Shown piece by piece: positions 1 to 27,370 of a stretch of DNA of 46,701 bases (positions are counted from its first letter, which is position 1; each line of letters opens with the position of its first letter). The notes under the pieces were generated by a model. It saw only the letters and a program-made list of their open reading frames with translations. It searched no databases and was not told the origin of the DNA. The stretch lies in the NCBI GenBank assembly GCA_945903635.1, contig CAMDOT010000018.1, positions 1 to 46,701 of the forward strand. The letters are read 5' to 3'. A program made the position numbers and the translations under genes. The stretch comes from Rhizobium sp. Q54. GTDB taxonomy: Bacteria; Pseudomonadota; Alphaproteobacteria; Reyranellales; Reyranellaceae.

Positions 1-1
1 T

Positions 2-394: not shown

Positions 395-406
395 GGGGAG
401 GCCGAC

Positions 407-1327
407 ATGTCCGTTCTTCAAGCCCTCGACCTCCGCCGCCGCTCCGCTTCCAGCGTGCCGCCGCTTCCTGCCGGCAAGCCGGCCGCAGTTGCCGTCGCCA
501 AGCTGATCGACGTCAGCAAGTGCATCGGCTGCAAGGCCTGCCAGACCGCGTGTCTGGAGTGGAACCAGCTCGACCAGCCGATCGGCTACACCGACGGTAG
601 CTACGACAATCCGACCGACCTCACGACGGCCTCGTGGACCGTGATGCGCTTCACGGAATACGAGCACGGCGACGATCTGGAATGGCTGATCCGCAAGGAC
701 GGCTGCATGCATTGCGACGATCCGGGCTGCCTGAAAGCATGCCCGGCGCCGGGCGCCATCGTGCAGTACACCAACGGCATCGTCGACTTCATCTCCGACA
801 ACTGCATCGGCTGCGGCTATTGCGTGAAGGGCTGCCCCTTCAACATCCCGCGCATCTCCCAGACCACCAGCAAGGCCTACAAGTGCACGCTGTGCTCCGA
901 CCGTGTCGTGGTGGGCCAAGCGCCGGCCTGCGCCAAGGCCTGCCCGACGCAGGCGATCTACTTCGGCACCAAGGAAGAGATGATCGCCCACGCCGGCAAG
1001 CGCATCGTCGACCTGAAGTCGCGCGGCTACCAGAACGCCGGCCTGTACAATCCGGCGGGTGTGAACGGCACGCACGTCATGTACGTGCTGCAGCATGCCG
1101 ACAAGCCGTCGCTCTACGCCGGCTTGCCCGACGATCCGCACATCAGCCCGCTGGTCGGGATCTGGAAGGGCGTGATGAAGCCCCTGTCGCTGGCCGCCAT
1201 CGCCTTCGCCGGCGCCTTCGGCTTCCTGCACTACGTCACCAAGGGACCCAACACGGTCACCGAGCATGACGAGGAGAAGGCGGCGGAGCTTGCGGGAACT
1301 GATAGGGCCGGGAGTGACAAGGCATGA
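407..1327 (+). CDS. fdoH: Formate dehydrogenase iron-sulfur (beta) subunit
   Basis: The 306-residue protein carries electrons from the catalytic subunit to the membrane cytochrome. Four ferredoxin-type cysteine clusters are visible in order: [37 protein letters not shown], and CTLCSDR...[10 protein letters not shown], as expected for four [4Fe-4S] centres. Near the C-terminus (about residues 262-285) a hydrophobic stretch, [18 protein letters not shown], matches the single membrane anchor of FdnH/FdoH. The start at 407 follows a GGGGGAGG-type ribosome site. The 3' end overlaps the next gene by 4 bp (ATGA), indicating translational coupling. Length is close to the E. coli homologues (~294-300). 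The fdo rather than fdn assignment is by family resemblance only. Confidence 0.95.
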
Positions 1328-1953
1328 CCGAGCATACGAAACCGGTAAGCCGCTACACGACAGCCGCCCGCATCAACCATTGGATCACCGCGGTATCGCT
1401 GATCCTCCTGGCGCTGAGCGGCATGGCGCTGTTCCATCCCTCGCTGTACTTCCTCACCTACCTGTTCGGCGGCGGCCAGATCACGCGCGCCATCCACCCC
1501 TGGATCGGCGTCGTCCTCGGCATCAGCTTCCTCGGCCTCTTCATCCGCTTCTTCGCGCTCAACTTCTGGAACCGCGACGACACGATCTGGATGAAGAATC
1601 TCGGTGCGGTGATCAACAACAAGGAAGAGGGGCTGCCCGAGCTGGGCAAATACAATGCCGGCCAGAAGCTGGTCTTCTGGGGCCAGTCGATCCTGATCCT
1701 TCTGCTGCTCGGCAGCGGCTTCGTGCTGTGGGACACCTATTTCGCGTCCTATACGACGATCGACCAGAAGCGGTGGTCGGCGGTGATCCACGCCTTGTGC
1801 GCGATCGGCGCCATCCTGATCTGGATCGTGCACGTCTATGCCGCCATCTGGGTCAAGGGCACGCTGCGCGCCATGACCCAGGGCTCCGTCACCGGCGGCT
1901 GGGCCTGGAAGCACCATCGCAAGTGGTTCCGCCAGGAAGTCGGCAAGCCCTGA
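1324..1953 (+). CDS. fdoI: Formate dehydrogenase cytochrome b556 (gamma) subunit
   Basis: This 209-residue integral membrane protein takes electrons from the beta subunit and reduces quinone. It has four hydrophobic segments, at about residues 18-37, 55-80, 112-133 and 148-175. Candidate haem histidines lie in RINHW near the N-terminus, AIHPWIG in helix 2, and VIHAL / IVHVY in helix 4. This is the FdnI/FdoI pattern. The gene overlaps the beta subunit by ATGA. The C-terminus [13 protein letters not shown] is typical of the family. It ends at 1953, overlapping the most likely start region of fdhE. Confidence 0.94.
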
Positions 1954-2894
1954 GCGACGGCCCCAACAACCCGTCCACCGGTTTCGGCGAAAACATTCTC
2001 GGCGAGGCGGCCGAGAGCGATCCCGTTCGCCTGCCTGATCTCGCGACGGTCTTTTCGCGTCGCGCGTCGCGCCTGCAGGCGTTGGCGCCCGGGCACGAGC
2101 TGGAAGGATTCCTGCGGCTGATCGCGGCCTTGGTGACGGCCCAGCATGCTGCGCTGGCGAACCTGCCGCCGGGCGTCCTGCCGGGGGCGTCGGAGATCGC
2201 CAAGGCACAACTGGTTCATCGGGCGCCGCTCGACCCATCGTTTTGGCGGCGCGACGAGAGCTGGCGCGTGGCCCTCTCGCGCATCCTGGAGACGATCGAT
2301 GTCGATGTCCTGCCGGAGCCGGCGCGAGAGGCCCGCGCGGCGCTCGGCCGGGCAAGCCCGGCTGACCTCGAAGCGCTGGCCGACCGCTACCTCGGCGGCA
2401 ATGTTGCTGCGGGCGAGGCTGCGCAGGCGATCTTCGTGGCGGCGGCGCTGCAGGTCGCGTGGACGCGTATGGCGGCGCTCCTGGACAGCGCCGACTTCGC
2501 CACGCGCGAGGTGGACGGCGGGCAATGTCCCGTTTGCGGCTCGCCACCGGTGTCCGGCCTCATCTCGCCCGGCGGCACCAAGTTCGGCCACCGGCACCTT
2601 CACTGCTCGCTGTGCGCCGCGTCGTGGCGCTACGTGCGCGTGCGCTGCGTCCATTGCGGCAGCACCGACAAGGTCTCGTTCCGCAATCTGGCCGGCACAT
2701 CCTACCTTCGCGCCGAATGCTGCGAGGTCTGCCACGGCTATTCGAAGGTCTTCTATCTCGACAATGCGCGGATGCTGGAACCTCTCGCCGACGACCTTGC
2801 CTCGCTCGGCCTCGACGTCCTGGTCGGTGAGGAGGGCTTCTCCCGTGTTCCCAACCCCTTTGTGCTGGGGGTCATGGAGCCTTCCGGGAGTTAG
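1950..2894 (+). CDS. fdhE: Formate dehydrogenase accessory protein FdhE
   Basis: FdhE is a cytosolic rubredoxin-like protein needed for maturation of respiratory formate dehydrogenases. Paired cysteine motifs run from about residue 192 to 260: CPVCGSPP, CSLCAASW, RCVHCGS and CCEVCHGY, the zinc/iron-binding signature of the family. Family-like sequence begins at about base 2020 (RLPDLATVFSRRASRLQAL). No ATG lies between the preceding gene and that point. CTG at 1950 overlaps the upstream TGA (CTGA) and has AGGAAG 10 bp upstream. GTG at 1923 is the alternative and would overlap fdoI further. The start is therefore uncertain; identity of the gene is not. Confidence 0.88.
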   Translation: MSDGPNNPSTGFGENILGEAAESDPVRLPDLATVFSRRASRLQALAPGHELEGFLRLIAALVTAQHAALANLPPGVLPGASEIAKAQLVHRAPLDPSFWRRDESWRVALSRILETIDVDVLPEPAREARAALGRASPADLEALADRYLGGNVAAGEAAQAIFVAAALQVAWTRMAALLDSADFATREVDGGQCPVCGSPPVSGLISPGGTKFGHRHLHCSLCAASWRYVRVRCVHCGSTDKVSFRNLAGTSYLRAECCEVCHGYSKVFYLDNARMLEPLADDLASLGLDVLVGEEGFSRVPNPFVLGVMEPSGS

Positions 2895-2982
2895 GGCTTT
2901 CGATTGATCGTAGGGCACGGCTGAGTCATCCTGCCGTCACACTTGCCGTCTCATCCGGCAAGATTCTCGTGGAGAAATATCC

Positions 2983-4371
2983 GTGTCGCGTGCCGACCGC
3001 GCCGAAGGCGCCTCCGCTTTCCGCCCACCGTCCGTCGATCGCATGGCCAACTGGCCGGCGCTGGCTCCGCTGATCGAGCGTGCTGGCCGACCGCTCGTCA
3101 TCGAGGCGTTGCGCGCCTGGGCCGAGGCCCATCGTGGCAAGCCCGACGTCGCCGACGAGCCCGCCTGCGTGCGCTGGTGCACGGCGCGGCTCAGCAGCCT
3201 GGTGACGCCGTCCCAGAGGCGCGTCTTCAATCTTACCGGCACCGTGCTGCATACCAATCTCGGCCGCGCCCTGCTTGCCGAGGAGGCGATCGAAGCGGCG
3301 GTTGCCGCCATGCGTTCGCCGACAACGCTCGAATACGATCTCTCGGGTGGCGCGCGCGGCGAGCGCGACGACCATATCTCGCCATGGCTTCGCCGCCTGA
3401 CCGGGGCCGAGGCGGCGACGGCTGTCAACAACAACGCCGCCGCCGTGCTGCTCGTTCTCAATGCGCTCGCCGCCGGCCGCGAGGTGATCGTCTCGCGCGG
3501 CGAGTTGATCGAGATCGGTGGCGCCTTTCGCATCCCCGACATCATGGCCCGCGCCGGCTGCCGCCTCGTCGAAGTCGGCACCACCAACCGCACGCACCTG
3601 AAGGACTACGCGGCCGCCATCGGCCCCGACACCGCCGCGATCATGAAGGTCCATCCGTCGAACTACGCCATCGAAGGCTTTACCAAGTCGGTGCCGGCGG
3701 CCGAGCTGGTGGCGCTGGCGCGTGAGAAGGGCCTGCCGCTGATCGAGGACCTCGGCAGCGGCACGCTGGCCGATCTCGAAACCTGGGGCCTGCCGCACGA
3801 GCCGACGGCGCGTGAGGCGATCGAAGCAGGAATCGATGTCGTCACCTTTTCAGGCGACAAGCTTTTGGGCGGCCCGCAGGCGGGTCTCATAGTCGGTCGA
3901 AAGGACCTGATCGAACGCATCGCGCGCAACCCGATGAAGCGTGCCCTTCGCCTCGACAAGGTCCGGCTGGCAGCCCTCGAGGCAACGCTGCGGCTCTACG
4001 CCGATCCGGGACGCCTGGCTGAGCGTCTGCCCACCATCCGGTCGCTGGCGCGACCCGCGGAAGATATTCGCGCCCAGGCCGAGCGTTTGCTGCCGGGCCT
4101 GCGCAAGGCGCTGGGGAATGCCGCCGAAGCGGGAATTGAATCAGTGCGCGGCCAGATCGGTTCGGGCGCCTTGCCGGTCGATCTGTTGGCCTCGTTCGCG
4201 TTGGCGATACGCGGCAAAGGACTTGATGGCCTGGCCGATGCGTTCCGGCGCCTGCCGATTCCCGTCATCGGCCGCATCGCCGACGACACGCTCTACTTCG
4301 ATCTGCGCACGCTCGACGACGAGGCGGCCTTCGCAGCGCAATTGGACCAGCTCGATGTCGTGGCTGGCTAA
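2983..4371 (+). CDS. selA: L-seryl-tRNA(Sec) selenium transferase
   Basis: SelA is a PLP enzyme that converts seryl-tRNA(Sec) to selenocysteyl-tRNA(Sec) using selenophosphate. The 462-residue length is the family norm. The PLP lysine is K293 in [12 protein letters not shown], the diagnostic SelA motif. [16 protein letters not shown] and [11 protein letters not shown] are also typical. The start is GTG at 2983, with GGAGA 7 bp upstream. The 3' end overlaps the Sel1-repeat gene by 17 bp. It sits in the formate dehydrogenase operon ahead of selB and the tRNA-Sec gene, so all gene products for Sec insertion except SelD are encoded here. Confidence 0.96.
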
Positions 4372-5128
4372 GCTCTTCGACCGTACGCCTCCTGTCGACG
4401 AGCGCATGGCCGATGCGCTCGCGGCGTGGACCGCCGGCGAGTATGGCGTGGCGCTCGATCTCTGGGCGCCACTTGCCCACGAGGGCGTGGCGCGCGCACA
4501 GAGCAACATGGGCGCGGCTTTCCTGGAAGGCCGCGGCGTCGAGCGCGACCTTGAAAAGGCAGCGGCCTGGTTGCGGCAGGCGGCCGAGCAGGGCGACGCC
4601 GGTGGGCAGCGCAACCTCGCGCTTTGCTACTACGAAGGCTGGGGTGTGCCGCAAGATCAAGTCGAGTCGGCCAAATGGTATGAGAAGGCAGCCCTGCAGG
4701 GCGATGCCGACGCCCAGGACATGCTGTCGTGGATGATGCTGGTCGGCGGCGGCTGCCCGCAGGATTACGTCGGCGCCCGGCAATGGGCGGAGAAGGCCGC
4801 GGCCCAAGGCCGGGCGGCTGCGATGGCGCGGCTGGGCGACATCTATCACAACGCGCTGGGCGTCGAGCGCGATCCCGTCCGGTCCGCCGAATGGTGGGGC
4901 AGGGCCGCACGCCTCGGCATGGCGGAGGCCCAGGCGATGCTGGGCGCGGCCTACCTGGCCGGCAAGGGCGTGTCGCGCGACCCCCTCGAAGCATTGCACT
5001 GGCTTCTGCGCGCCGAAGCGGGCGGCGCCGGCGAACTCGCGACGGGTTTCCTGCGCGAGGCCCAGGCCCACACCAAACCGTCGCAGCGTGCCGAAGCGGC
5101 GCGCCGGGCAGCGGAGCCTCTTTCATGA
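4355..5128 (+). CDS. Sel1-repeat (SLR/TPR-like) protein
   Basis: The 257-residue protein consists mostly of Sel1-like repeats of about 36 residues, five visible between residues 40 and 225. Typical cores are [34 protein letters not shown] and [11 protein letters not shown]. Such solenoids mediate protein-protein contacts. No signal peptide or membrane segment is seen, so it is probably cytosolic. The start ATG at 4355 lies inside the end of selA and leaves a clean [11 protein letters not shown]-terminus; a longer reading of the frame would be out-of-frame selA. Overlap with selA and position before selB suggest a role with the Sec machinery or formate dehydrogenase assembly, but its function is not known. 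Confidence 0.85.
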
Positions 5129-5135
5129 CTCTTCC

Positions 5136-5216
5136 GGACCGCGGGCGTCCCGCCCGCCTCATGAGCATGAGCCGGGTCGCGCGGAGTAATCTCCGCGCTG
5201 AGGACGCCCGCGGTCC
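5136..5216. repeat. Nested palindromic repeat element upstream of selB
   Basis: An 81-bp element fills most of the 103-bp gap between the Sel1 gene and selB. Its outer arms are a perfect 15-bp inverted repeat, 5136-5150 (GGACCGCGGGCGTCC) and 5202-5216. Inside lie an 8-bp hairpin with a TAAT loop (5179-5186/5191-5198, GCGCGGAG/CTCCGCGC) and a left-hand 7-bp hairpin GCGGGCG-TCC-CGCCCGC. It looks like a dispersed REP/MITE-type palindrome. It has no T-tract, so it is not an ordinary terminator. In RNA it would form a strong structure just before selB. Confidence 0.75.
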
Positions 5217-5231
5217 ACATGAGATGACTCC

Positions 5232-7130
5232 ATGATCGTCGGAACCGCAGGCCACATCGACCACGGCAAGACCGCGCTGGTGAAGGCATTGACCGGCGTC
5301 GATGCCGATCGCCTGAAGGAAGAGAAGGCGCGCGGCATCACCATCGATCTCGGCTATGCCTACAGCGATCTCGGCGACGGCCGCCAGCTCGGCTTTGTCG
5401 ATGTGCCCGGCCACGAGCGCTTCGTGCACAACATGCTGGCCGGCGCCACGGGCATCGATGCAGCGCTGCTCGTCGTCTCGGCGGTGGAAGGCATCAAGCC
5501 GCAGACCGTCGAGCACCTGCAGATCGTCGACCTGCTCGGCCTCGACCGCGGCATCGTGGCCCTCACCAAGGCCGACCTGGCCGACGACGACCAGATCCTG
5601 GAGCGCATGGCGGAGGTCGAGACCCTGCTTTCCTCGACGTCGCTGGCCGGGGCGGAGATCATGCCGGTCTCCGCGCTCACCGGGCAGGGCGTCGACGAGC
5701 TGAAGGCCAAGCTGCTGACCCTGGGCGAGAGCGGCAAGGGCGCCACCGGCTTCGCACGGCTGGCGGTCGACCGCTGCTTCGTGCTGTCGGGCACGGGCGT
5801 CGTCGTGACGGGGACGATCCATGCCGGCGAGATCAAGGTCGACGACCGGCTGGTGCTCACGCCCTCGGGACTGGAGGCGCGCGTGCGCTCGCTGCATGCC
5901 CAGAACCGGCCGGCCGAGATCGGACGCGCGGGCGAGCGTTGCGCGCTGAACCTCACCGGACCACGTCTCTCCAAGGATTCCGTGCGGCGTGGCGACTGGG
6001 TCGTCAGTCCGGAATTGCATGCACCGACCGACCGGATCGACGTCCGCCTGAAACTGCTCGCCTCGGAGGGCCAGCCGCTGAAGCACTGGTCGCCGGTCCA
6101 TATCCATTTGGGCGCGGCCCACGTCATGGGACGGGTGGCGCTGATCGAGGACGACAAGCTTGCGCCCGGCGCGTCGGGACTGGCGCAGCTCGTGCTCGAC
6201 GAAAAAGTGGGCGCGCTTGCGGGCGACCGCATCATCCTGCGCGATCCCTCGGCGACGCGCACGCTCGCCGGCGCCGCGGTGATCGATCCCTTCGGCCCGC
6301 CGCGCAACCGCCGGTCCGAACGCCGCCGGTCGGAACTCGGCGCGCTGGACAACGCGGATGCCGAAGTGCTGCCGAAGCTCCTGCGGCTGGAATCGGGCTT
6401 CATCGAACTGGCCCGCTTTGGACAGTCGCGCAATCTGCGGTCGGCCGAAGTGGAGGGCCTGTTGCGTGCGGCCGGTGGCGAGAGTCTCGAAGGCTTCGGC
6501 TTTCTCTCCGAAACGCTGGCCGCCGCCCGGCTGGATATCGTCGATACGCTGAAAGAATTCCATGTCGCCAAGCCCGACGTGGCCGGGCTTCAGCCCGAAC
6601 GTTTGCGCGTGACGCTGAAGAAGCGCTGGCCGATACAGGTCTTCCGCGCCCTGCTCGACCGCGAAGTGCACGCCAAGAAGGTGACGGTGGATGGGCCGTT
6701 CCTGCGGATCCCCGGGCACTCGCTCACGCTCGGGCCGAAGGACGAGGCGCTGTGGAACAAGGTTGCCGCGGAGCTGCAGCGCGAGCGCTTCAAGCCGCCG
6801 CGCGTGCGCGACTTCGCCCAGGCCTACAGCGTGCCGGAGCCGGATATGCGGCGGCTGCTGCAGCGCATGGCCAAAATCGGCCGGGTCGTCGAGGTGGCGC
6901 CGGATCAATACTTCCTGCGGCCGGTGGTGGCCGAAATGATCGGCATCGCCCACGCCTTCGGCCGCGACTTCACCGCCGCGGAGTTCCGCGACAAGCTCGA
7001 CAACGGCCGCAAGCTGGCGATCCTGATCCTGGAGTTCTTTGATCGTCATGGCGTCACGATCCGCCGCGGCGACCTGCGCCGGACGGCGCCGCAGAAGCTC
7101 GAGCAATACGGTCCGCCTCCGGCCGCGTGA
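5232..7130 (+). CDS. selB: Selenocysteine-specific translation elongation factor SelB
   Basis: SelB is the GTPase that carries Sec-tRNA to the ribosome at UGA codons marked by a SECIS hairpin. The 632-residue protein starts with the G1 loop [11 protein letters not shown] (residues 4-14). It then shows [10 protein letters not shown] (switch I), [13 protein letters not shown] (G3) and LTKADL (G4). EF-Tu-like domains 2 and 3 follow, and then about 250 residues of winged helices that bind SECIS RNA (FSRP.. / RDFAQAY / [21 protein letters not shown]). Length matches the family (~610-640). The start ATG at 5232 follows the palindromic element; no strong ribosome site is seen. Confidence 0.96.
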
Positions 7131-7182
7131 GAGCGCACGCTCATAGGTGACAGCGCCCGGCTTCTGGGGAATGATCGGAAGT

Positions 7183-7278
7183 GGAGGGGAAGCGCTCCCG
7201 GTGGGGCGGCTGGCCTTCAAAGCCAGAGAGGGCCGCCAGACGGTTCTTAGTGGGTTCGACTCCCACTCTCTTCCGCCA
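7183..7278 (+). tRNA. selC: tRNA-Sec (anticodon TCA)
   Basis: A 96-nt gene with the hallmarks of bacterial tRNA-Sec. The 8-bp acceptor stem is 7183-7190 with 7267-7274, all paired with two G-U pairs. The long D stem is GCTCCC-GGT-GGGGC from 7194. The anticodon arm is CTGGC-CTTCAAA-GCCAG with TCA at 7217-7219. A long variable arm follows, then the T arm GTGGG-TTCGACT-CCCAC ending at 7266. Discriminator G at 7275 and an encoded CCA at 7276-7278 complete it. It lies 52 bp after selB in the same direction. Its 3' end is duplicated 4.1 kb downstream, so it is an integration site. Confidence 0.95.
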
Positions 7279-7285
7279 ACTCCTC
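7261..7285 (+). repeat. Left attachment-type direct repeat (3' end of tRNA-Sec)
   Basis: The 25 bp covering the last 18 bases of tRNA-Sec plus 7 downstream bases are identical to 11347-11371. The pattern is that left by site-specific integration into a tRNA 3' end, with the element restoring the intact gene. The bases on either side of the two copies differ. Confidence 0.85.
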
Positions 7286-7442
7286 ATCCGATGTGATCTA
7301 AGGAAGACCAATAAAATCCGAATGGCGGCCCTGGTGGCCAAGTACCGGGGGGTGGCCATCCATCTTTACTACAGCCCGGTAGTATCGCCGTGACACGCAC
7401 CTCTGTTGGTCGAGTAATCTTTGCTCGTACCAGCTCGCTCTG

Positions 7443-7481
7443 TTCTATCGAAGGTTGCGCAACGTGCATACTTCGATAGAA
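7443..7481. promoter_or_regulatory. Inverted repeat upstream of the island's first gene
   Basis: Perfect 11-bp arms TTCTATCGAAG (7443-7453) and CTTCGATAGAA (7471-7481) flank a 17-bp spacer that itself begins with the palindrome GTTGCGCAAC (7454-7463). It lies 27 bp before the GTG start at 7509. It may be an operator or a structured 5' leader. The rest of the 7286-7508 gap shows no gene. Confidence 0.55.
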
Positions 7482-7508
7482 TTTCTTAGGGCGTTATAGG
7501 AGGGTGTT

Positions 7509-8876
7509 GTGACTGAGGGGGCAGACGGAGTTTTGGCACCCGACGGGACGGTGCCTACGGCGCGCGAGGGGTTGGTGCTGCGTTTGCGCAAGGCGACGGC
7601 GCGCTCTGCTGCTCTTCTTCCCCTGCTAAGGAAGGCGGCGACTAAGTCTGCCGCGTGGGCATGGAGTTGCGTGAAACGCGGACCATTTTGGTTGGGCGTT
7701 GTCTCTCTGGCTGCCTTTCTCTATGTGGCAGACTATGTTTACGACATCCTCGTCGACGACTCTTACGCCGTCCTCAAAGAGGACGATATAGGTCTTGCCT
7801 GGACAAACGGTATCGCGAGACTTGGCATCCGACCCATCTATCCGCCGCAGGAGGATTTGAGGGTTGGCGACATCTGGGTGATCATCAGCGGCACAAGCGA
7901 CAACGTCCCCGTCTTGAGTAAGGCGGTGCGTCTCGAAACCCTCGATCTACGGTCCGAGATATTCAACGGCGACCGTTTTCGACCCATTTTCTCTGACACG
8001 GTTAAGAAGGACAAGGACAACGAATTTCGCACTCTCTCTCGGAGAGAGGTTGGACCTATCGTTCGGCAGCCCGCCAACCAGAAACCATCCGAAGACAAGG
8101 CGAAAAATGTAGAAGAGGAAAAACAAGAAAAGGCGAAAGACGAGAAAGCAAAGGCAGAGCAGTTCATTGCGACGTCAATTACTGCTTTCCCAGGTTTTTC
8201 CATTAACCACGTCAAGCGCTCGTCCGCCAGTTGGGGAATAGCCAACATGCTCTTCGGTGGCGATCGAAAGGCGGGGGAGGTCGAACAAGTCATGGTTAAC
8301 GAAGTGGAGACCTACGGTGCGCCAGCGTGGGAGGCTCTTAAACGTTTAACAGGATGGTGTTTTGGAGACGGCAAGGACATATGCGCGGATGACAAGATTG
8401 CAAGGCAGTTCTTGTCCCTTGCGCTTCCCTCGCAGGCGAATGTGCTCGAAGTGAAGGATTGCAAATATACCTCTCGCATCGAACTGATCATGATTTCGCG
8501 TGTCTTCATGACACGAGAGATCGATTCGCAGCGCTGGCTCGTGGGTTCCCGAGGCGCGCGTCTCGACCTGAGCGCCAAGCCCGCATCGAAGCTTCCGCCG
8601 GCCACCGGGACGGCCGATCCATCGCCCACTGCGACGGGGAGCGTCCCACCGCTTGAAGACACCGACGCGGCATCGGGCAGACTTTCGACCTTTTCCTCCG
8701 ACAAGACGCAAATGGGCTTGAAAGGAGTCTTTCAGCGGCCTCTCGTCTTCGGTTTCCGTTCAGTGTCCATCGCCCTTGATCAACGACCACCTGAACCACC
8801 CGACGTCGAGAAACCTTGTCCCGCGCCAGCCAAGGCGACGTTGCCAAACGCTACCTCGACTGGAGGCAAACCATGA
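7509..8876 (+). CDS. Membrane-anchored protein of unknown function (island)
   Basis: I do not recognise this 455-residue protein. The N-terminal ~58 residues are basic and probably cytosolic. One membrane segment follows at about residues 59-78 (FWLGVVSLAAFLYVADYVYDI), leaving a ~375-residue domain that is probably periplasmic. Features of that domain are GIRPIYPPQEDLRVGDIWVI, a strongly charged E/K-rich stretch at about 195-222 likely to be coiled coil, and two cysteines near WCFGDGKDIC. A Pro/Thr-rich linker precedes the C-terminus. The GTG start has AGGAGGG 4 bp upstream. It overlaps the next gene by ATGA. Position in a tRNA island beside an OLD nuclease suggests defence or phage-related cargo, which is inference. 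Confidence 0.8.
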   Translation: MTEGADGVLAPDGTVPTAREGLVLRLRKATARSAALLPLLRKAATKSAAWAWSCVKRGPFWLGVVSLAAFLYVADYVYDILVDDSYAVLKEDDIGLAWTNGIARLGIRPIYPPQEDLRVGDIWVIISGTSDNVPVLSKAVRLETLDLRSEIFNGDRFRPIFSDTVKKDKDNEFRTLSRREVGPIVRQPANQKPSEDKAKNVEEEKQEKAKDEKAKAEQFIATSITAFPGFSINHVKRSSASWGIANMLFGGDRKAGEVEQVMVNEVETYGAPAWEALKRLTGWCFGDGKDICADDKIARQFLSLALPSQANVLEVKDCKYTSRIELIMISRVFMTREIDSQRWLVGSRGARLDLSAKPASKLPPATGTADPSPTATGSVPPLEDTDAASGRLSTFSSDKTQMGLKGVFQRPLVFGFRSVSIALDQRPPEPPDVEKPCPAPAKATLPNATSTGGKP

Positions 8877-9106
8877 AGCTACTGGCCATTCTGCTCATTA
8901 GCCTGCCGGCCACGTCTGCATGGGCCGAGTGCCCGTGTGCTCCTTCTGACCTTACGTGCGTTTTAAGAGAGAAATGCTTTAAAGGGGGTACCTTTGGTGG
9001 CGCGCTTGCTCCCAACAAGAACAAGCAAGTAGGTGCCGATTTCCAAATGAATGGCATGACGCCTCTTTCCGATGTTGTTGTCATTAAGGGCAAGCCGAAG
9101 CTGTGA
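8873..9106 (+). CDS. Small secreted cysteine-containing protein (island)
   Basis: A 77-residue protein with a clear Sec signal peptide, MKLLAILLISLPATSAWA, cleaved before ECPCAPSDL. The mature part has four closely spaced cysteines (ECPCAPSDLTCVLREKC) and is ~59 residues. ATG at 8873 is chosen because it gives the signal peptide, has GGAGG about 8 bp upstream, and overlaps the stop of the preceding gene (ATGA). The upstream extension in this frame lacks these. Coupling to the membrane-anchored protein suggests that the two act together in the envelope. No family is recognised. Confidence 0.75.
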   Translation: MKLLAILLISLPATSAWAECPCAPSDLTCVLREKCFKGGTFGGALAPNKNKQVGADFQMNGMTPLSDVVVIKGKPKL

Positions 9107-9321
9107 CGCCAACCTCGACCGAGGTCATGGCGGCGCGATCGGCCTATGCGGCGAAGGCAAATGCAACCAACTTGGCCGTCGTTCGGAAGGTTCAGAAGAG
9201 CGGCGTGGTCTCTCTGGCAGGCATCGCGCGTACGCTGGAGGCGAGAGGCGTAAGAACGCCCGGCAGGGGGCGCACCCAGTGGCAGCCCGTGCAGGTGTCA
9301 CGCCTTCTAGCAGTGGCTTAG
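9103..9321 (+). CDS. Fragment resembling a serine-recombinase C-terminus
   Basis: A 72-residue frame beginning with GTG at 9103, overlapping the preceding stop (GTGA). The sequence SLAGIARTLEARGVRTPGRGRTQWQPVQVSRLLA resembles the C-terminal helix-turn-helix tail of resolvase/invertase-type recombinases (pattern: IA..LN.RG..T.RGG.W....V.R.LA). The catalytic serine domain is absent. It may be a decayed recombinase, or a small stand-alone DNA-binding protein translated from the same mRNA as the two genes before it. Confidence 0.5.
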   Translation: MTPTSTEVMAARSAYAAKANATNLAVVRKVQKSGVVSLAGIARTLEARGVRTPGRGRTQWQPVQVSRLLAVA

Positions 9322-9371
9322 CGGTGATCTTGGGATGATTCCGAACATTACACTAAACCGTGCTGCTTTGG

Positions 9372-9409
9372 TCTCGTTGTGTGAACAAACGCGCTTTCGC
9401 GAAACGAGA
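9372..9409. promoter_or_regulatory. Inverted repeats just upstream of the OLD-nuclease gene
   Basis: TCTCGTT (9372-9378) and AACGAGA (9403-9409) form a 7-bp inverted repeat. The palindrome TTTCGCGAAA (9395-9404) overlaps its right arm. The structure ends 5 bp before the ATG at 9415, so it could act as an operator or occlude the start codon in mRNA. Confidence 0.4.
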
Positions 9410-9414
9410 ACCTA

Positions 9415-11229
9415 ATGCCTCTTCATCGATTTACCCGGGTGGAGTTCTCGCGGTTCAAAGCGTTTCGCAATTTTTCCCTTGAACTCAAGCAGTTCAATAT
9501 TCTTGTTGGTCCGAACAACGCTGGCAAATCAACCGTTCTAGCCGCGTTCAGAATCCTCGAAGCCGCGATGCGTCAAGCTCGCCGCCAACAACCACACAAC
9601 GTGCCTAGTGGTGCCGGACGCGTTCCAGGTTACTACGTCGACATCAGGGCCATATCGGTCGCTGAGGAAAATATCTTTCATGACTATGATGAAAGCGAAC
9701 CCGCGACCGTAGTGTTTCACTTGTCCAACCAGAATACTCTTACGCTCCACTTTCCGGAGCGGGGTACCTGCATCCTCTTCGCGAAGGTCGCGGGAACGAC
9801 CGTTGCTAGTGCCGTGGCCTTTCGATCTCACTTCGATTGCCCAATTGGTTTCGTGCCCATTTTAGGCCCCGTCGAACACCACGAGCGCATGCGGACCGAG
9901 GCCACCGCAAAACGAGCACTATTTACTTACAACGCAGCCCGCAACTTCAGAAATATTTGGTTCCACTACAATCAGGACTTCGACACTTTTCGTGACATAC
10001 TGCAGCGTACTTGGCCTGGAATGGATATTGAGAAACCTCGTGTGGAGACATCACATGGGGAAGCTCGACTAGTAATGTTCTGTCTGGAGAATCGCATTCC
10101 GCGCGAAATTTTCTGGGCCGGATTCGGCTTCCAAGTCTGGGCACAGATGCTCACACATCTAATCCACGCCAGCGAGAAGTCCCTATTTCTCATTGATGAG
10201 CCAGATATCTACCTGCATTCGGAGCTGCAACGGTTGCTACTCAGCCAACTCCGCAATCTCGGTCCTGATATCCTTATTGCGACTCATTCGACGGAAATCA
10301 TCACCGAAGCCGAAGCAGACGATATTGTTTTGGTGTCCAAGGATGCAACCCGTGCCCGCCGCATTCGAGAGCCTTCCCAACTTCGGGAAGTGTTCCGAAT
10401 ACTTGGATCCAGCATCAATCCGATTCTCACGCAAGTAGCCAAGACTAGGCGAGTCCTGTTTGTCGAAGGGAAAGACTTCCAGATTATTGGCAGGTTCGCA
10501 CAACGACTTGACCGTCCCGCAATCGGCAACCGAGAAGCCTTTGCTGTAATTCCAATCGAAGGCTTCAACCCGGAGCGAGCAAGGAGCCTGAAGATGGGCA
10601 TGGAGGAGTCTCTTGGTGGGCCAATAATCGCCGCAGTTGTGTTGGATAGAGACTACAGATCAGAGGCGGAGTGCTCTTCGATTGCTGAGAAGTGCGGGCA
10701 GTTTTGTGAATTTGTGCAGATCCTAGAGCGTAAAGAAATCGAGAACTTCACGCTAATTCCAGCTGCGATCGATCGGGCAGCCGCTATTAGAGTAGCAGAT
10801 CGTGTCAGTCGCACAGGAGTTGCTGCCAAGTATGAGAATGAAGCCGGCCGTATCCTTGCTGAGTTTGCTGCCAGCAAGAAATCGTATGTCGCGTCCCAAA
10901 TGCTCACAGCCCGCCGACTGTTCGAACGATCAGCCTTGTCGCACGTGCATGAAACCACACTGGCGGAATCTTCACTTGAGACACTCGAAAGAATTTGGTC
11001 GGATGAGGCAACGAGGCTCCAACTGATCCCTGGAAAAGAAGCGCTCAGCGCGGTCAATAGTTGGTTGCAGGAGAAGTATCGCGTAACGATCAGCCCGACA
11101 GCAATCATTGACGCATTGATTATCGAAGAAGTCCCCGCAGACATGTTGACTCTTGTAAACATGCTCTCGGAATTTGCTACAACTAGGCCCGCGACCACTC
11201 GCAGAGACCCACGACAGGAAACGGCATAA
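9415..11229 (+). CDS. OLD-family endonuclease: ABC-type ATPase fused to TOPRIM domain
   Basis: The 604-residue protein has an N-terminal SMC/ABC-like ATPase domain. Walker A is GPNNAGKST (residues 32-40), Walker B is SLFLIDEP (D261, E262), and a switch histidine is H291 in IATHST. A TOPRIM domain follows: VLFVEGKD (E351), VVLDRDYRS (D411, D413) and an ILERKEIENF motif. This order is that of OLD nucleases, which act as anti-phage effectors alone, with a GajB-type helicase (Gabija), or with retrons. No UvrD-like helicase, reverse transcriptase or ncRNA is seen beside it, so a class 1-like, stand-alone OLD is the best reading. A fused PARIS-like AriA-AriB arrangement is a weaker alternative. Base composition is lower in GC than the neighbours. 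Confidence 0.88.
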   Translation: MPLHRFTRVEFSRFKAFRNFSLELKQFNILVGPNNAGKSTVLAAFRILEAAMRQARRQQPHNVPSGAGRVPGYYVDIRAISVAEENIFHDYDESEPATVVFHLSNQNTLTLHFPERGTCILFAKVAGTTVASAVAFRSHFDCPIGFVPILGPVEHHERMRTEATAKRALFTYNAARNFRNIWFHYNQDFDTFRDILQRTWPGMDIEKPRVETSHGEARLVMFCLENRIPREIFWAGFGFQVWAQMLTHLIHASEKSLFLIDEPDIYLHSELQRLLLSQLRNLGPDILIATHSTEIITEAEADDIVLVSKDATRARRIREPSQLREVFRILGSSINPILTQVAKTRRVLFVEGKDFQIIGRFAQRLDRPAIGNREAFAVIPIEGFNPERARSLKMGMEESLGGPIIAAVVLDRDYRSEAECSSIAEKCGQFCEFVQILERKEIENFTLIPAAIDRAAAIRVADRVSRTGVAAKYENEAGRILAEFAASKKSYVASQMLTARRLFERSALSHVHETTLAESSLETLERIWSDEATRLQLIPGKEALSAVNSWLQEKYRVTISPTAIIDALIIEEVPADMLTLVNMLSEFATTRPATTRRDPRQETA

Positions 11230-11346
11230 ACGGCTTTTTGAGAGTTGGTGCTTCCAACGCTAACGTTTGGGGTAGGTCTGGGGGTATCTCGCCCACAATG
11301 AATTGGTAGAGTGAGACTAAGCAATGGCTTAGGCGCGCTATGTGCT

Positions 11347-11371
11347 TCCCACTCTCTTCCGCCAACTCCTC
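11347..11371 (+). repeat. Right attachment-type direct repeat
   Basis: An exact copy of 7261-7285, the 3' end of tRNA-Sec plus 7 bases, with no tRNA body in front of it. It marks the right end of the island. The 117 bp between the OLD gene and this copy contain no gene. Confidence 0.85.
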
Positions 11372-11424
11372 CGATAGGGACCTCTGCCAGCTGGCTATTG
11401 CATACCCGGCATGCGAACGCCGAT

Positions 11425-11453
11425 TTGCAGGTTCAATAGGAAAATGGTAAGAA
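11425..11453 (+). promoter_or_regulatory. Promoter-like element, partial third copy
   Basis: TTGCAG (11425-11430), a 17-bp spacer and TAAGAA (11448-11453). The first 11 bp, TTGCAGGTTCA, match the elements at 39759 and 45345. Beyond that the spacer diverges, and the -10 is poor, so this copy is the weakest of the three. Confidence 0.3.
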
Positions 11454-11492
11454 ATTGACTATCTTGGCGGGAGTGCGCTTCCGCTGATCCAG

Positions 11493-11532
11493 GCCCGTCC
11501 GCGCCCCGCCCAGGCGCTGTAGCGGGCTTTTT
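11493..11532 (+). terminator. Bipartite stem-loop with T-tract
   Basis: Outer stem GCCCG (11493-11497) with CGGGC (11523-11527) encloses a second stem GCGCC/GGCGC (11501-11505/11513-11517). TTTTT follows at 11528-11532. It lies 120 bp after the right island repeat. It could be the original terminator of the selC transcript, now separated from the tRNA by the island. Confidence 0.5.
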
Positions 11533-11640
11533 CATGTCCCGTTTGTGTCTCCCGTTTTGCCCAGGAGTTGCCAGTGTCCGCTTTCGTTTATTGCGTCACC
11601 TCAAGCGGCATCGGCCACGACTCCGCCTGCGGCCGGCGAC

Positions 11641-11700
11641 GAACAACTCCGAACAATTTGAACACGAACAGAATCGAAGACGCGTTGGTGTCCTTTTTGA
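11641..11700 (+). repeat. Imperfect direct repeat, copy A
   Basis: These 60 bp match 27371-27430 at 49 of 60 positions without gaps, including an identical 18-bp stretch at 11658-11675 (TTGAACACGAACAGAATC). Weaker similarity continues for about 100 bp. Copy A precedes the adhesin gene and copy B follows the block of exoprotein genes. The remaining part of the 11372-11901 gap holds no convincing gene; two short overlapping frames here have no recognisable features. Confidence 0.65.
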
Positions 11701-11901
11701 CATACCTGAAAGGCCTGTTTTATCGGCGTTTCTTCGAGCGCCCTTTGATAAAAACGCGATTCGTTGCGATTTTGTGTTCAAAAACGTCGATTTCACGCTC
11801 AAGTCTTTGGTGCAAATCCGAGCGATGAATGGTTAAAAGAGGCCTTCCGGGTAGCTTAGCGTAGTTCATGCCGTCGATCCCGCGATGGTCAGGGGAATAC
11901 G

Positions 11902-14900
11902 ATGGCAGTTGTCGTCTCATCGATCGAAACCAATGTCGGCACGGGAACATTCGGCCCCTGGCAGGAAATCACCTTCACGGTCAATTTTTCGGAGATCGTG
12001 GACGTAACGGATGTGCCGACCCTCACGCTGAACAATGGCGGGGTCGCAAGTTACTTTGACGGCAGCGGCACCTCGACCCTGACCTTCACCTATACGGTGG
12101 GCGATACCGGTTCCGGACAGGATACCGCCGAGCTGGCGGTGGCGGAGCTGATCGGCACCGTCCTGTCGAACGCCGACCTTGAGCCGGTGAGCACCGCCGG
12201 CTTCCCGTTCAATTTTCCCAACGAGTCGATCGACACGACGGGCGATGTCGATGGCGACGTGGCGCTCACGATATTCGAAACCACGATCAACGCTTCCCAG
12301 AACACGTCCGTAATGTTCGAGGTGCTGGGCCTCGATGACGATGCCACGGCCGATATCACCTTCAGCAGCAACGGCGGCGGCGATCCGTACGTCGTGCATG
12401 TGACGGCAAACGGCGTCGGCTTCGCCGACCTGTCGAGCCTGATCGACGGGGACATCAGCACGATGCTCGGCGTGACCGACGGGGTGGGCAACCACGCGAT
12501 CGCCTTCGGCTCATCCTTCACCCTCGACACGTCGGTGCCGTCCAGGCCGGGGCCGTTGCAGCTCGCGCCTGAAGATGACTCGGGTTTGTTCGATTCCGAT
12601 GGCATCACGCAAAACACGTCGAACCTGACGATCAGCGGTGCGTCCGACGACGGGACGACGGTCTCGTTGTTCGAGGATAGCGACAGCAACGGCGTGATGG
12701 ACGGCGACGAGACGGTGCTCGCGACGGTGCCGACGGTCGGCGGCAGCTTCTCGGCCGACATCTCGCTGGGGGAGGGCACGCATCGCATCGTGGCGTTCCA
12801 GACCGATGCGGCGGGCAATACGAGCGAGAACTCGATGCCACTCGACATCACGGTCGACACGACGGTGGATGCGGGCGGCGACCTGGCGCTGGTTTTTGCC
12901 CATACGGTCATCGGCGGCGCCGAGGTATACACGGTGCCGTTCACGGTCGACGGCCTGGATGACGACGTCATCGATGCGTACATCACAATCTCTCACGAAT
13001 TTGGGTCGTATGATTGGCCCGTCTCTAACGGTCCCATCGACCTGTCGTTCTTCAGTTCGGTCAACACGAGCCTCACCGTCACGGACCGGGCGGGCAACAC
13101 GACGACCGTTCCTGGCCCCACCCTCACGATCGATGCCTCGGCGGACGCCGACCACGACCTGATACTGACGATCACGGGAAACCCGGACATCAGCGCGGCC
13201 ACCAAGGCCGCGGTGGAGTTCTCGTTCACGGGTCAGGACACCGACGTGGTCGCGGCGCGGGTGGTCTTTACGGACCGCATGGGAACGGAATTCACGGTCA
13301 CCGACGCCCTGACAACGACCGTGGCCGACCTGTCGTCCTTCGTCGACGGTCCCTTCACCGCGGAACTCTTCGTGACCGATGCGGTGGGCAATACGGGATA
13401 TGCCATCAGCGGGCAGCCGCTCAACATGAACACCACGGCGGACGCCGACGATGCCGCCACCCTGACGGTCGATCGCCTGATCAGCGGAGACGAACTCGGC
13501 GCCGTTAGCTACACGATTGCCGGCGTCGATGATGACCTGATGACAGGTTTCATCGTCTTCACCGACAGTCTCGGGAACAGTCACCCTCCGGAGTACATCA
13601 CCGGCAACGGCACCTTCACGGTCGGCCTGTCGGACTTGGTCGATGGCCCCATCACCTCGGTGCTGACGATTGTCGATACGGCCGGCAACTCGGTGGACAT
13701 TGTCGGAAGCACGTCGCTGATCCATACGGCGGGGCCGCTCTCGATTTCGATCAACTTTTTCCGGTCGCTGGGCCCGGACGCGGCCGATCAGCTGTCGGAT
13801 TTCGCGGAAGTGATTCTGGAGAACAACGCCGCGGGATTCGCGTCGCTGACGGCCGAAGAAATCGCAACCTTCGGTCCGGCCGGCGTGACATCGATACGCT
13901 CCACGTCGGGTTCGCTGGCGCTGACGATGGCCCAGTACGACGCCTTGGGAACGGTCGATGTGACTGAGACCGACACCGTGACGTTGCGTGATATCGGGGC
14001 CAACTTTGCCGCTTTGGATGGCGCACTGGTCGGCGGCATCGACAGGCTCGATGCCACGGACAACGTGCTGTCGCTGACGGTGGACCAGGTCTTGTCGGTG
14101 CTTGACGGTGGGCCGTCGCTGACGAATTCGGACGTTGTGACACTGACCGGTACACAGGACGACTTGATCTGGGTGAGTCTGGACCTTTCCAGCCTCGCCC
14201 CCGCGGGCGTCGACAGGATCGATGCGGACGACGACAGCCTGTCGCTCTTGGTGTCGCAGTATCAGCTCCTCGGCGGGGTGGTGTTTGCGGATGACGACAC
14301 GGTGACGCTGGCCGACCAGAGTGCAAGCTTCGAGTCTCTCAGTTCCCGCATGTTCGAACGCTTTGCGGCTTCGGGCATCGACATTATCGATGAGGTCGAC
14401 GACCGCCTGGTCCTGACGGTGGCGCAATACAACGCACTGAACGGTATCGAGCTCACCGACTCCGATGAGGTGACGCTGCGCGACTCCGGGTCGCTCCTCG
14501 CCGGGCTGGACTTCGCTGCCGCGGCCGACGCCGGCATTGATGTGCTCGATGCTTCGAAGGATGCGTTGTCGCTGACCGTGTCGCAGTATGAGGCGCTGAG
14601 TGCAGCGTCGCTCGAGCTCACGTCGGGGGACGTTGTGACGCTGGCTGATGTTGGCGCCAGCTTCGCAGGGTTGGACCTCCTCGCACTGGAAGCGGCCGGC
14701 ATCGACAAACTCGATGCCACGGACAACGTCCTGTCGCTGACGATGGATCAGTACTCCGGGGTAGGCGCGGTGACGCTGACGTCGGCGGACATGGTGACGC
14801 TGGCCGATTATGGCACCAGCTTCGTTGGAGAGGACTTGGGACTGCTGGCTGGCTGGGGTATCGACCGGATCGATGCCACCGGCGACGACACCTTGTCGAT

Positions 14901-16344
14901 CACTCTCGGCCAGTTCAATGCCCTCGGCAGGGTTCTCCTGACGGACGCCGACACGGTGACGCTGACCGACATGGGTGCATCCCTCCAGGCTCTCAATACC
15001 CGCGCGCTCGGCCGCCTGGCGGCCGCGGGCATCGACAGGATCGATGCGGACGACGACCAGCTGACCCTGTCGATGGCGCAATACAACGCGCTGAACGGTG
15101 TCGCGCTCAGCTCCTCCGACGTGGTGAGGCTGCACGACGCCGGGTCGGTTCTCGCCGGGCTGGACTTCGCTGCCATGGCCGCCGCCGGCATTATTGTGAT
15201 CGATGCGTCGAAGAATGTGATGTCGCTGACGGTGGCGCAGTATCAGGCGTTCGATCCGACGTCGATTGCGCTCGAAGCGTCGGACGTCGTGACGCTGGCC
15301 GATAATGGCGCCAACTTCGCAGGGGTGGACTTCGCCTCGCTGGACGACCGGGGCATCGACAGGATCGATGCCACCGGCGGATTGTCGCTGACGGTGCAGC
15401 AGTACCAGGACCTTGGCGGGGTGGCGCTGACAGCGGCAGACGTGGTGACACTGGCCGACGATGCCGCCAACCTCACTGGACTGGACGACTTCGGACCGCT
15501 GGCTGGCAGGGGTATCGACCGGATCGATGCCACCGGCGACGACCCCTGGTCGCTCGACCTCGCCGAGTTCAACGCGCTGGGCAAGGTTCTCCTGACGGAC
15601 GACGATGCCGTGACCATCGTTGGCACAGACGGCAACGACAAATTCACCTTCTCGTGGCAGACCTTTACCGACAACGACAAGGTCGAGGGCGGCGACGGGA
15701 CGGACACGCTGACGTTGGTCGGCGATTACGCGGACTTGCTCACCTTCGGGGCCGGCAGCCTGTCGGGCATCGAAAAGCTCGTGGTCGGTGCGGGGCATTA
15801 TGACTTGTCCGTCGCCAACGGTGCAGCCGGCGCCATGCTGGGCGTGTACGCGACGAAGCAGGGTGCCTCGGATTCACTGAGCTTCGATGGGTCGGCTGAA
15901 ACCGCGGGATCGTTCAAGTTCTACGCTGGCCCAGGCACGAACACATTCACCGGTGGAAGCCATAGCGACGCGGTGATCGCGGGCAGCGGAATGGACATTG
16001 CGCGCTACACGGCCGCGTCACAGTCGCTTCTCGGCAGCCACGACACGATCACCGGGTTCGATGCCGGCGTCGACAAGTTCGACTTCGGGCACGCCGTAAC
16101 GGTCGATGCCGGCGCCGGCGGCGCTCTCTCGGCTTCGACGATGTCTCAGGTTCTCGAGTTGGCGTTCGCGGGTTTGCAGGACAACCATGCCGCGGTGTTC
16201 ACGGCGACCGGCGGCTCGTACAACGGCTCCAAGTTCCTGGTGGTCGATATGAACCACACGACCGGCTATCAGGCCGGTGCAGATATCGTCGTGCAGCTCT
16301 ACGGCAGCATCGGCACCATCGACACCGACACTTTCATGATCTGA
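11902..16344 (+). CDS. Large secreted Ig-like/repeat adhesin-type protein with type I secretion C-terminus
   Basis: A 1480-residue acidic protein without a Sec signal peptide. Residues ~1-85 form a bacterial Ig-like fold of the type ITFTVNFSE...PTLTLNNGG...GSGTSTLTFTYTV. Residues ~105-620 hold further beta-sandwich modules (DTSVPSRPGPLQL, ITVDTTVD, VTDRAGNT, VTDAVGNT). Residues ~640-1235 are 11 copies of a ~55-60-residue unit with core GIDRIDATDNVLSLTVAQYNAL..LTSADVVTL split across the copies. The C-terminus has GTDGNDKFTF, DTITGFDAGVDKFDF and an ending DTDTFMI, typical of RTX/type I secretion substrates. The start has AGGGGAA 5 bp upstream. Surface adhesin is the likely role. No type I transporter genes are in the window. 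Confidence 0.82.
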   Translation: MAVVVSSIETNVGTGTFGPWQEITFTVNFSEIVDVTDVPTLTLNNGGVASYFDGSGTSTLTFTYTVGDTGSGQDTAELAVAELIGTVLSNADLEPVSTAGFPFNFPNESIDTTGDVDGDVALTIFETTINASQNTSVMFEVLGLDDDATADITFSSNGGGDPYVVHVTANGVGFADLSSLIDGDISTMLGVTDGVGNHAIAFGSSFTLDTSVPSRPGPLQLAPEDDSGLFDSDGITQNTSNLTISGASDDGTTVSLFEDSDSNGVMDGDETVLATVPTVGGSFSADISLGEGTHRIVAFQTDAAGNTSENSMPLDITVDTTVDAGGDLALVFAHTVIGGAEVYTVPFTVDGLDDDVIDAYITISHEFGSYDWPVSNGPIDLSFFSSVNTSLTVTDRAGNTTTVPGPTLTIDASADADHDLILTITGNPDISAATKAAVEFSFTGQDTDVVAARVVFTDRMGTEFTVTDALTTTVADLSSFVDGPFTAELFVTDAVGNTGYAISGQPLNMNTTADADDAATLTVDRLISGDELGAVSYTIAGVDDDLMTGFIVFTDSLGNSHPPEYITGNGTFTVGLSDLVDGPITSVLTIVDTAGNSVDIVGSTSLIHTAGPLSISINFFRSLGPDAADQLSDFAEVILENNAAGFASLTAEEIATFGPAGVTSIRSTSGSLALTMAQYDALGTVDVTETDTVTLRDIGANFAALDGALVGGIDRLDATDNVLSLTVDQVLSVLDGGPSLTNSDVVTLTGTQDDLIWVSLDLSSLAPAGVDRIDADDDSLSLLVSQYQLLGGVVFADDDTVTLADQSASFESLSSRMFERFAASGIDIIDEVDDRLVLTVAQYNALNGIELTDSDEVTLRDSGSLLAGLDFAAAADAGIDVLDASKDALSLTVSQYEALSAASLELTSGDVVTLADVGASFAGLDLLALEAAGIDKLDATDNVLSLTMDQYSGVGAVTLTSADMVTLADYGTSFVGEDLGLLAGWGIDRIDATGDDTLSITLGQFNALGRVLLTDADTVTLTDMGASLQALNTRALGRLAAAGIDRIDADDDQLTLSMAQYNALNGVALSSSDVVRLHDAGSVLAGLDFAAMAAAGIIVIDASKNVMSLTVAQYQAFDPTSIALEASDVVTLADNGANFAGVDFASLDDRGIDRIDATGGLSLTVQQYQDLGGVALTAADVVTLADDAANLTGLDDFGPLAGRGIDRIDATGDDPWSLDLAEFNALGKVLLTDDDAVTIVGTDGNDKFTFSWQTFTDNDKVEGGDGTDTLTLVGDYADLLTFGAGSLSGIEKLVVGAGHYDLSVANGAAGAMLGVYATKQGASDSLSFDGSAETAGSFKFYAGPGTNTFTGGSHSDAVIAGSGMDIARYTAASQSLLGSHDTITGFDAGVDKFDFGHAVTVDAGAGGALSASTMSQVLELAFAGLQDNHAAVFTATGGSYNGSKFLVVDMNHTTGYQAGADIVVQLYGSIGTIDTDTFMI
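13818..15630 (+). repeat. Tandem coding repeats with a 654-bp super-repeat
   Basis: Eleven units encode the AQY/ID repeats of the adhesin. Units 4-7 resemble units 8-11 one to one. For example, GGCGCAATAC at 14421 recurs at 15075, and GGTTCTCCTG at 14931 recurs at 15585, both 654 bp apart. This points to duplication of a four-unit block. Confidence 0.7.
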
Positions 16345-27136: not shown

Positions 27137-27370
27137 CGCTAGCCCTTTGGCCCGTCAAACGGCAATTCGCCAAAGTCACTACCGACTGCGTCCCCTCGTG
27201 ACATTGACCTAGGCCCCCAAGCCCACACTTCAGGGACGTAATTCCACTCTCCGATGCATCTCAAGTCAAGTCGGGCGCGATTTTGACCGAGATTGCAACT
27301 CCAGGGAGAGAGCAAGAGGCCCGGGCCCGCGAAGGCACCGAGCGAGAGCTAAGGCGGCACGGTCGGTAGC

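Follow-up and report, generated by a model that had tools for sequence, protein, structure and literature searches.

The selC locus and its insert

The stretch analysed here, referred to as the window, comprises the 46,701 nucleotides (nt) of contig CAMDOT010000018.1 of Rhizobium sp. Q54 (assembly GCA_945903635.1; Alphaproteobacteria, Reyranellaceae in GTDB) and carries a small genomic island at the 3' end of the selenocysteine tRNA gene, selC. The tRNA gene is intact (Table 1); Rfam model RF01852 places it at 7183-7274 with 71.4 bits, and nothing else between 7100 and 12000 reaches the Rfam gathering thresholds. The island is flanked by a direct repeat of 25 bp, 25/25 identical, composed of the last 18 nt of tRNA-Sec including CCA and 7 further nt. 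The repeat has two occurrences only in the 6.38-Mb assembly when up to two mismatches are allowed, while the chance expectation of an exact 25-mer repeat within 4 kb is about 4e-12. The DNA between the repeats is 4061 bp long (~4.06 kb) and has a G+C content of 0.542, compared with 0.674 upstream (1-7181) and 0.640 downstream (11902-46701). The right edge of the island is not set by G+C content alone, since the 530 bp from the distal repeat to the next large gene are equally AT-rich (0.538). Four genes, for proteins of 455, 77, 72, and 604 amino acids (aa), are encoded in the island, all on the plus strand.

An original prediction, made from the letters of this DNA, had proposed a defence-type island between identical 25-bp repeats over the tRNA-Sec 3' end, with an AT-richer interior, an OLD nuclease, and envelope genes of no known family. 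The repeats are exact and a unique pair in the assembly, and the interior is AT-richer as described. An OLD-type ATPase gene is present, with its Toprim part read by eye, and the envelope genes correspond to a protein carrying a transmembrane segment at its N-terminus and to its small secreted partner, to which no family was assigned. Of the proposed formate dehydrogenase/selenocysteine setting, selA and selB were recovered upstream of the island by profile searches, and formate dehydrogenase was read from translations of open reading frames (ORFs) alone. Relatives of its SelB with an organism name are labelled Reyranella sp., Reyranella massiliensis, Alphaproteobacteria bacterium, or Rhodospirillales bacterium; the best named one, of Reyranella sp., is 94% identical, so that Q54 is most likely a Reyranella or a near relative.

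Table 1. Features of the selC island of Rhizobium sp. Q54 and its edges (window positions).
Feature	Position	Strand	Basis
tRNA-Sec (selC), intact, target gene of the island	7182..7278	+	ARAGORN
Proximal attachment core, 25-bp repeat, first 18 nt = tRNA 3' end	7261..7285	+	Repeat identity, genome-wide match count
Left end homologous to left ends of integrase-bearing islands	7283..7323	+	nhmmer profile
Inverted repeat TTCTATCGAAG / CTTCGATAGAA, 16-nt arms, 88% complementary, between left end and 455-aa gene	7443..7481	.	Repeat scan
455-aa protein: one N-terminal hydrophobic segment (~64-82), then predicted periplasmic gasdermin-fold domain	7509..8876	+	ORF, family alignment, models
77-aa small protein, signal-peptide-like N-terminus, C-x6-C, conserved partner	8873..9106	+	ORF, family comparison
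72-aa ORF, C-terminal tail of a serine recombinase; 5' two thirds absent	9103..9321	+	79% identity to G016 recombinase
604-aa ATPase of OLD-family type (AAA_21/AAA_15), with VEGKD and LDRD as Toprim-like motifs by eye	9415..11229	+	Profile searches
Paired integrase arm site GGGGTAGGTCTGGGGGTA, 78 bp before distal core	11269..11286	+	Match to sister-arm consensus
Distal attachment core, 25-bp repeat	11347..11371	+	Repeat identity, genome-wide match count
Chromosomal flank, dispersed unit	11425..11792	+	Close behind selC in G030, G049

Integrase-bearing selC islands of the genus

A query of 226 bp (selB end and selC) had matches in 86 of 146 genomes, Q54 included, of which 62 belong to the same genus, 10 to the same family, and 14 to the class. 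Of the 61 further genomes of the genus that matched, 40 supplied stretches downstream of selC, up to ~19 kb long. One selC integrase, used as query against 65 genomes of the genus, matched in 36 of them at an expectation value (E) <=1e-40. Among the copies listed, 11 are 67-100% identical (query included); they occur in ten genomes (G009, G016, G018, G025, G026, G028, G037, G043, G046, and twice in G053), and all 11 lie beside selC. The remaining copies listed have at most 51% identity, and none is near selC by its listed contig and coordinates. The integrase copies in G009 and G018 are cut by contig ends, and those in G018 and G028 bear a stop, while the G043 integrase has arm-binding, central, and catalytic tyrosine integrase domains. 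In G053, the two selC-type integrases (contigs C4 and C94; L020 and L112) each directly follow a selC tail, in the manner of a tandem array or of a second selC copy.

The sister islands have a common layout. They are flanked by copies of ~17-25 bp of the tRNA-Sec 3' end, and a left end with short repeated motifs is followed by paired arm sites, the tyrosine integrase gene, and cargo. The Q54 island points to selC as a recurrent defence-island site in this alphaproteobacterial genus.

The ends of the island tie it to this family. An nhmmer profile of the 11 integrase-bearing left ends, with the window excluded, matched the window just at the proximal core (E 3.8e-5), and the next match in the 46.7 kb had E 2.9. 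The same profile was run on 41 left ends (the 40 fetched and the window) and on 1000 shuffles; the window scored 19.9, the best shuffle 4.8, and the next selC locus (G002) 3.0. Scores above 22 were reached by five integrase-bearing loci, which are in the profile, and by G003, G032, and G058, which are outside it. Integrase fragments accompany the island left end in G003. At selC of G058 (L044:640-900), a left end and an arm pair without integrase precede a response-regulator-like ORF (by eye), and this locus is a second kind of remnant. G032 (L038) has an island-type left end at selC with neither integrase nor arm pair.

Right ends were found for three sister islands only, by the arm pattern in G025 and G016 and by a flanking gene in G043; those of the remaining sister islands were not found within the fetched stretches. 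In each of these three islands, as in the window, the distance from the start of the arm pair to the distal core is 78 bp; the window copy, GGGGTAGGTCTGGGGGTA, is its only match within three mismatches of the sister-arm consensus (0.03 expected). When all window positions were compared ungapped with the three sister right ends, the best summed identity was at 11268 (116/237), and the next position reached 95. The distal cores have two changes in G016, one in G043, and 22-23 identical bp in G025. A point against the assignment is that an nhmmer search with the three sister right ends gave a window match at E 0.75 only.

Origin of the integrase-less island

The window thus has the tRNA-Sec 3' end repeat at both edges, the left end, and the 78-bp arm spacing of the selC islands of the genus, but the tyrosine integrase beside selC that its sisters carry is absent. 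No integrase gene was recognised inside the island, and the selC integrase clade had no match in the Q54 genome at E<=1e-40; because the integrase is lacking from both window and assembly, the island is regarded as an integrase-less derivative and not an autonomous member. Its sequence places the segment in a genus-wide family of selC-specific integrative islands, as a rearranged member that has no integrase. The missing integrase, which the original prediction had noted as unusual, is explained by the selC integrase clade of the genus, whose islands share the window's ends; instead of a special kind of island without integrase, the segment is a family member, defective or non-autonomous, whose relatives bear the integrase.

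The 72-aa ORF, absent from the original prediction, is a trace of the rearrangement. It is 79% identical to residues 153-219 of a 220-aa serine recombinase of G016, and as it aligns with these residues only, it was rejected as a small stand-alone recombinase. DNA homology to the sister recombinase gene starts at ~9121, with the 77-aa and 455-aa genes preceding; since it starts only there, neither the integrase nor the 5' recombinase part is present, and the gene pair stands where they would be. An intact copy of the serine recombinase gene is found in the selC island of both G016 and G043, and G012 has one at 90% identity on a contig other than that of its selC match. None was found in G025 at E<=1e-20, so the recombinase is not universal among selC islands.

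The ancestor would have entered when its integrase recombined its own attachment site with the tRNA 3' end, by which the tRNA was restored. Rearrangement would have cost the island its integrase, its left arm pair, and the 5' recombinase part, leaving the gasdermin-like gene pair described below in place of the lost parts. The island is now probably stranded, unless a selC integrase arrives in trans. We consider this explanation as a whole, selC-family membership together with the proposed entry, rearrangement, and gene functions, very probable.

The segment could also be a non-autonomous element that is still mobile, a short passenger moved in trans by sister selC integrases and never a full island in this genome. 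Its small size, the right arm kept at exact spacing, and the two identical 25-bp cores, where the distal cores of G016 and G043 have changed, are in accord with this; however, G025 has a distal core identical over 22-23 bp together with its own integrase. The window has no second arm-pair match within three mismatches that could serve as the left pair, its recombinase is truncated, the Q54 genome has no integrase of the selC clade, and the 4.06-kb segment, compared with 145 other genomes, matched only over the recombinase tail, in three of them, so that no second genome among these carries it. Such a passenger is considered unlikely. Tandem duplication, homologous recombination, or transposition as the source of the repeat would suit a segment without integrase, but is extremely improbable given integrase-bearing sisters with the same core, left end, and 78-bp right-end spacing. 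The derivation from an integrase-bearing selC island remains the preferred reading.

Empty sites and the right flank

In five of the 40 fetched loci (G045, G008, G029, G015, and G031), one and the same small gene follows selC directly, and in G025 and G043 this gene starts just past the distal core. Set side by side, the sequences of these two islands and of the empty loci are a clean full/empty pair for the sister islands. A site-specific island with a defence-type gene at selC, as originally proposed, is supported, and both empty sites and other occupants exist in the genus. The same cargo at selC of other strains, also looked for, was found neither among the 145 other genomes (segment) nor among the 65 genus genomes (nuclease).

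For the window, an empty site joining 7285 to 11372 had been expected in related genomes, and such a site was found only approximately. A flank unit of ~370 bp, which begins in the window behind the distal core, lies ~58 bp (G030) and ~139 bp (G049) after selC, compared with 61 bp after the distal core; an exact junction was not found. The unit is dispersed: the Q54 genome has 11 matching pieces (itself included; seven other places), and of 75 genomes searched 10 gave matches, nine of them other members of the genus. It therefore supports an empty site by position only, and the distal flank was rejected as sole proof of one. In G032, the unit is found 7.8 kb downstream of selC, behind ABC substrate-binding-like ORFs (by eye) of chromosomal G+C content. 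Its copies at 11425-11792 and 27370-27499 are upstream of two large repeat-protein genes of the window.

The gene pair and its predicted gasdermin-like fold

In outline the island is ordinary, and the pair of 455-aa and 77-aa genes is the part worth following. The two genes overlap by ATGA, the start of the 77-aa gene being set at the ATG that overlaps the preceding stop. The 455-aa family is rare, with 16 proteins (this one included) in a large protein search and eight loci in named genomes (found with two short patterns). Within 385 genomes of the class, a single-protein search gave four genomes (Q54 and three weak) and a profile search two (Q54 and one distant); none of 47 pattern matches in viral contigs was confirmed. 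The protein has no NCBIfam match, and Pfam and PADLOC gave chance-level matches in single members only.

In all eight named loci, the end of the 455-aa homologue is overlapped or shortly followed by a small gene whose product has a hydrophobic N-terminus, with the ATGA overlap in six, and a C-x(5-11)-C motif is present in all nine partner proteins, that of the window included. Cysteines of the 455-aa protein are at positions 54, 284, 292, 318, and 437. Two cysteines, corresponding to the pair C284/C292, are invariant across the 24 aligned members. An N-terminal segment with mean hydropathy above 1.7 was found in 23 of these 24 (1.21 in P0136), and there is no other such segment. In 22 of the 24 members (all but P0129 and L108), net charge is higher ahead of the segment than behind it, from which a periplasmic location of the main domain is predicted.

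With two AlphaFold models of the family, gasdermins came first in structure searches, as the top 7 and 14 Foldseek rows, and they fill the top 21 and 20 VIA rows. As predicted from these models, the pair most likely encodes a membrane-anchored gasdermin-fold protein and a secreted partner. The likeness to bacterial gasdermins (PMC10989679, as far as the part of that text available describes them; PDB 7n50, 7n51, 7n52, 8sl0, 9a84) is the predicted fold over the pore-forming domain. Unlike them, the 455-aa protein has an N-terminal transmembrane anchor, a predicted position on the periplasmic side, and a cysteine pair, and its gene has a small secreted partner and no protease recognised next door; the N-terminal cysteine and detectable sequence similarity are also lacking. 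The first cysteine, Cys 54, is followed by the hydrophobic segment 64-82 in place of an N-terminal cysteine of palmitoylation type.

A single helix would hold the 455-aa protein in the inner membrane, and its gasdermin-fold domain would lie on the periplasmic side. The small secreted partner, co-translated with the protein, would keep it inactive or help to trigger it, and the activated protein may perforate the membrane. We put forward tentatively, as somewhat less than an even chance, that this is a new gasdermin branch, inner-membrane-tethered, periplasm-facing, disulphide-stabilised, coupled to a small secreted regulator, perforating the membrane from the periplasm, and carried as selC-island cargo.

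Several results weigh against a gasdermin. The structure-match scores are moderate and come from predicted models only, and a 24-row profile of the family found no PDB chain at E<=10 and no sequence link to gasdermins. When 16 members were scanned with Pfam and PADLOC, no gasdermin family came up at E<=5. The 455-aa protein could be an ordinary envelope protein built around a long twisted antiparallel sheet, its match to gasdermins being a similar arrangement only, but this is considered rather doubtful.

No protease was recognised in the island or among ten neighbour proteins scanned from seven of the eight named loci; three of the ten are without any family, and the others were assigned as ferric-reductase-like, AAA ATPase, phosphoribosyltransferase, LysE exporter, extensin-like, Dabb, and type VI secretion system (T6SS) Tle1-like lipase.

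The OLD-type ATPase, the gasdermin-like protein, and its partner could act together as one multi-gene defence system in which the nuclease senses and the pore former kills. They are adjacent, on the same strand, and in the same island, and both gasdermins and OLD proteins are known defence effectors (according to the available parts of PMC10989679 and PMC13261556). However, no OLD homologue was found in the 8-17 kb around any of the eight named relatives (best tblastn E 0.068), and the window has the recombinase tail between the gene pair and the OLD gene, so a joint system appears quite improbable. An apparent link of gene pair and OLD gene in a Rhizobiaceae metagenome-assembled genome (MAG; L104) was rejected, as the AAA_21 gene there overlaps or trails a glyoxalase-like ORF and precedes metabolic genes (by eye). 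No tRNA genes were found in the eight named loci. In a Xanthobacteraceae MAG (L101:4284-7046), the gene of the T6SS Tle1-like lipase stands beside the gene pair.

The literature search (titles and starts of abstracts) returned no gasdermin-like inner-membrane protein facing the periplasm, and the system in the available part of PMC13236601 is without a gasdermin. If the new branch is real, the gasdermins would extend to a periplasmic form that is anchored in the membrane and co-translated with a secreted partner, and it would be asked how a gasdermin acts from the opposite side of the inner membrane and which role the small partner has.

OLD-type ATPase and cargo of the sister islands

The 604-aa protein matches AAA_21 (E 2.4e-21) and AAA_15 (E 6.2e-16) in Pfam. 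Its best PADLOC matches are NsnB, Old, and AriA, together with several GajA profiles, one of which reaches residue 435. No Toprim family was found in Pfam up to E 10, and the Toprim-like motifs were read by eye. Similarity to the PDB chains of GajA, PtuA, and OLD is weak (best E 2.5e-6). The protein resembles the class 1 OLD nucleases, as presented in the part of PMC13261556 available, in being an isolated AAA ATPase gene with Toprim-like motifs, but it is only weakly similar to the solved GajA, PtuA, and OLD. The other three proteins of the island matched neither a GajB helicase nor a reverse transcriptase, and the ATPase may be an anti-phage effector that works on its own.

The 604-aa protein belongs to a large close family, with 3101 proteins at E<=0.001 among 7997 candidates scored. 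The best 120 of the 3101 are 58-67% identical over 97-99% of the length, led by one with 67% over 98%, besides the protein itself and one 70% identical over 85%, and the few named members among the relatives are alphaproteobacterial. Nevertheless, only Q54 of the 65 genus genomes carries the nuclease (E<=1e-60), which, with so large a close family, suggests that the gene was imported from outside the genus.

Cargo of the sister islands was scanned in three of the ten genomes. G043 carries HmaA, HmaB, and HmaC (PADLOC, E 0), G025 an MmeI-like type IIG enzyme (PADLOC, E 1.8e-266), and G016 a methylase (PADLOC, E 2.7e-63) with a specificity domain (Pfam). Three of the eight sister cargo proteins run on PADLOC, all from G025, had no match.

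Relation to other selC and tRNA islands

Named selC islands of enterobacteria include LEE and SHI-2. Enterobacterial islands at selC, pheU, and pheV span 3.4 to 57 kb, according to the part of PMC6174562 available. The islands described here share with those at enterobacterial selC the target gene and foreign DNA of widely varying size; in contrast, they belong to an alphaproteobacterium, have their own integrase clade and arm sites, and carry defence cargo, not virulence cargo, in the genus islands scanned. The integrase-only defence islands at tRNA hotspots of E. coli, as outlined in the available text of PMC10121019, are similar in being mobile islands, often located at tRNA genes, whose defence genes are interchangeable and whose mobilisation is unclear, but the window is without an integrase too, and it is the attachment ends that show the family resemblance. 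The literature search found no paper on selC integrase islands in Alphaproteobacteria, a single one for the selenocysteine tRNA as a site of islands, and, by title, nothing on topic for Reyranella genomic islands. An integrase-less tRNA island can be assigned to an integrase family by its ends alone, through the 78-bp arm-to-core spacing and the left-end profile, and such an assignment is usable for other orphan islands.

Other features

The arm of the inverted repeat in front of the 455-aa gene has no third copy in the window within two mismatches, and the repeat is a possible operator. Two very large proteins, of 1480 aa (11902-16344) and 2876 aa (18506-27136), are encoded next to the island. 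A Big_13 domain and, weakly, the C-terminal peptidase M10 family were matched in the 1480-aa protein. The G021 genome encodes a relative of the 2876-aa protein that ends ~60 bp behind selC.
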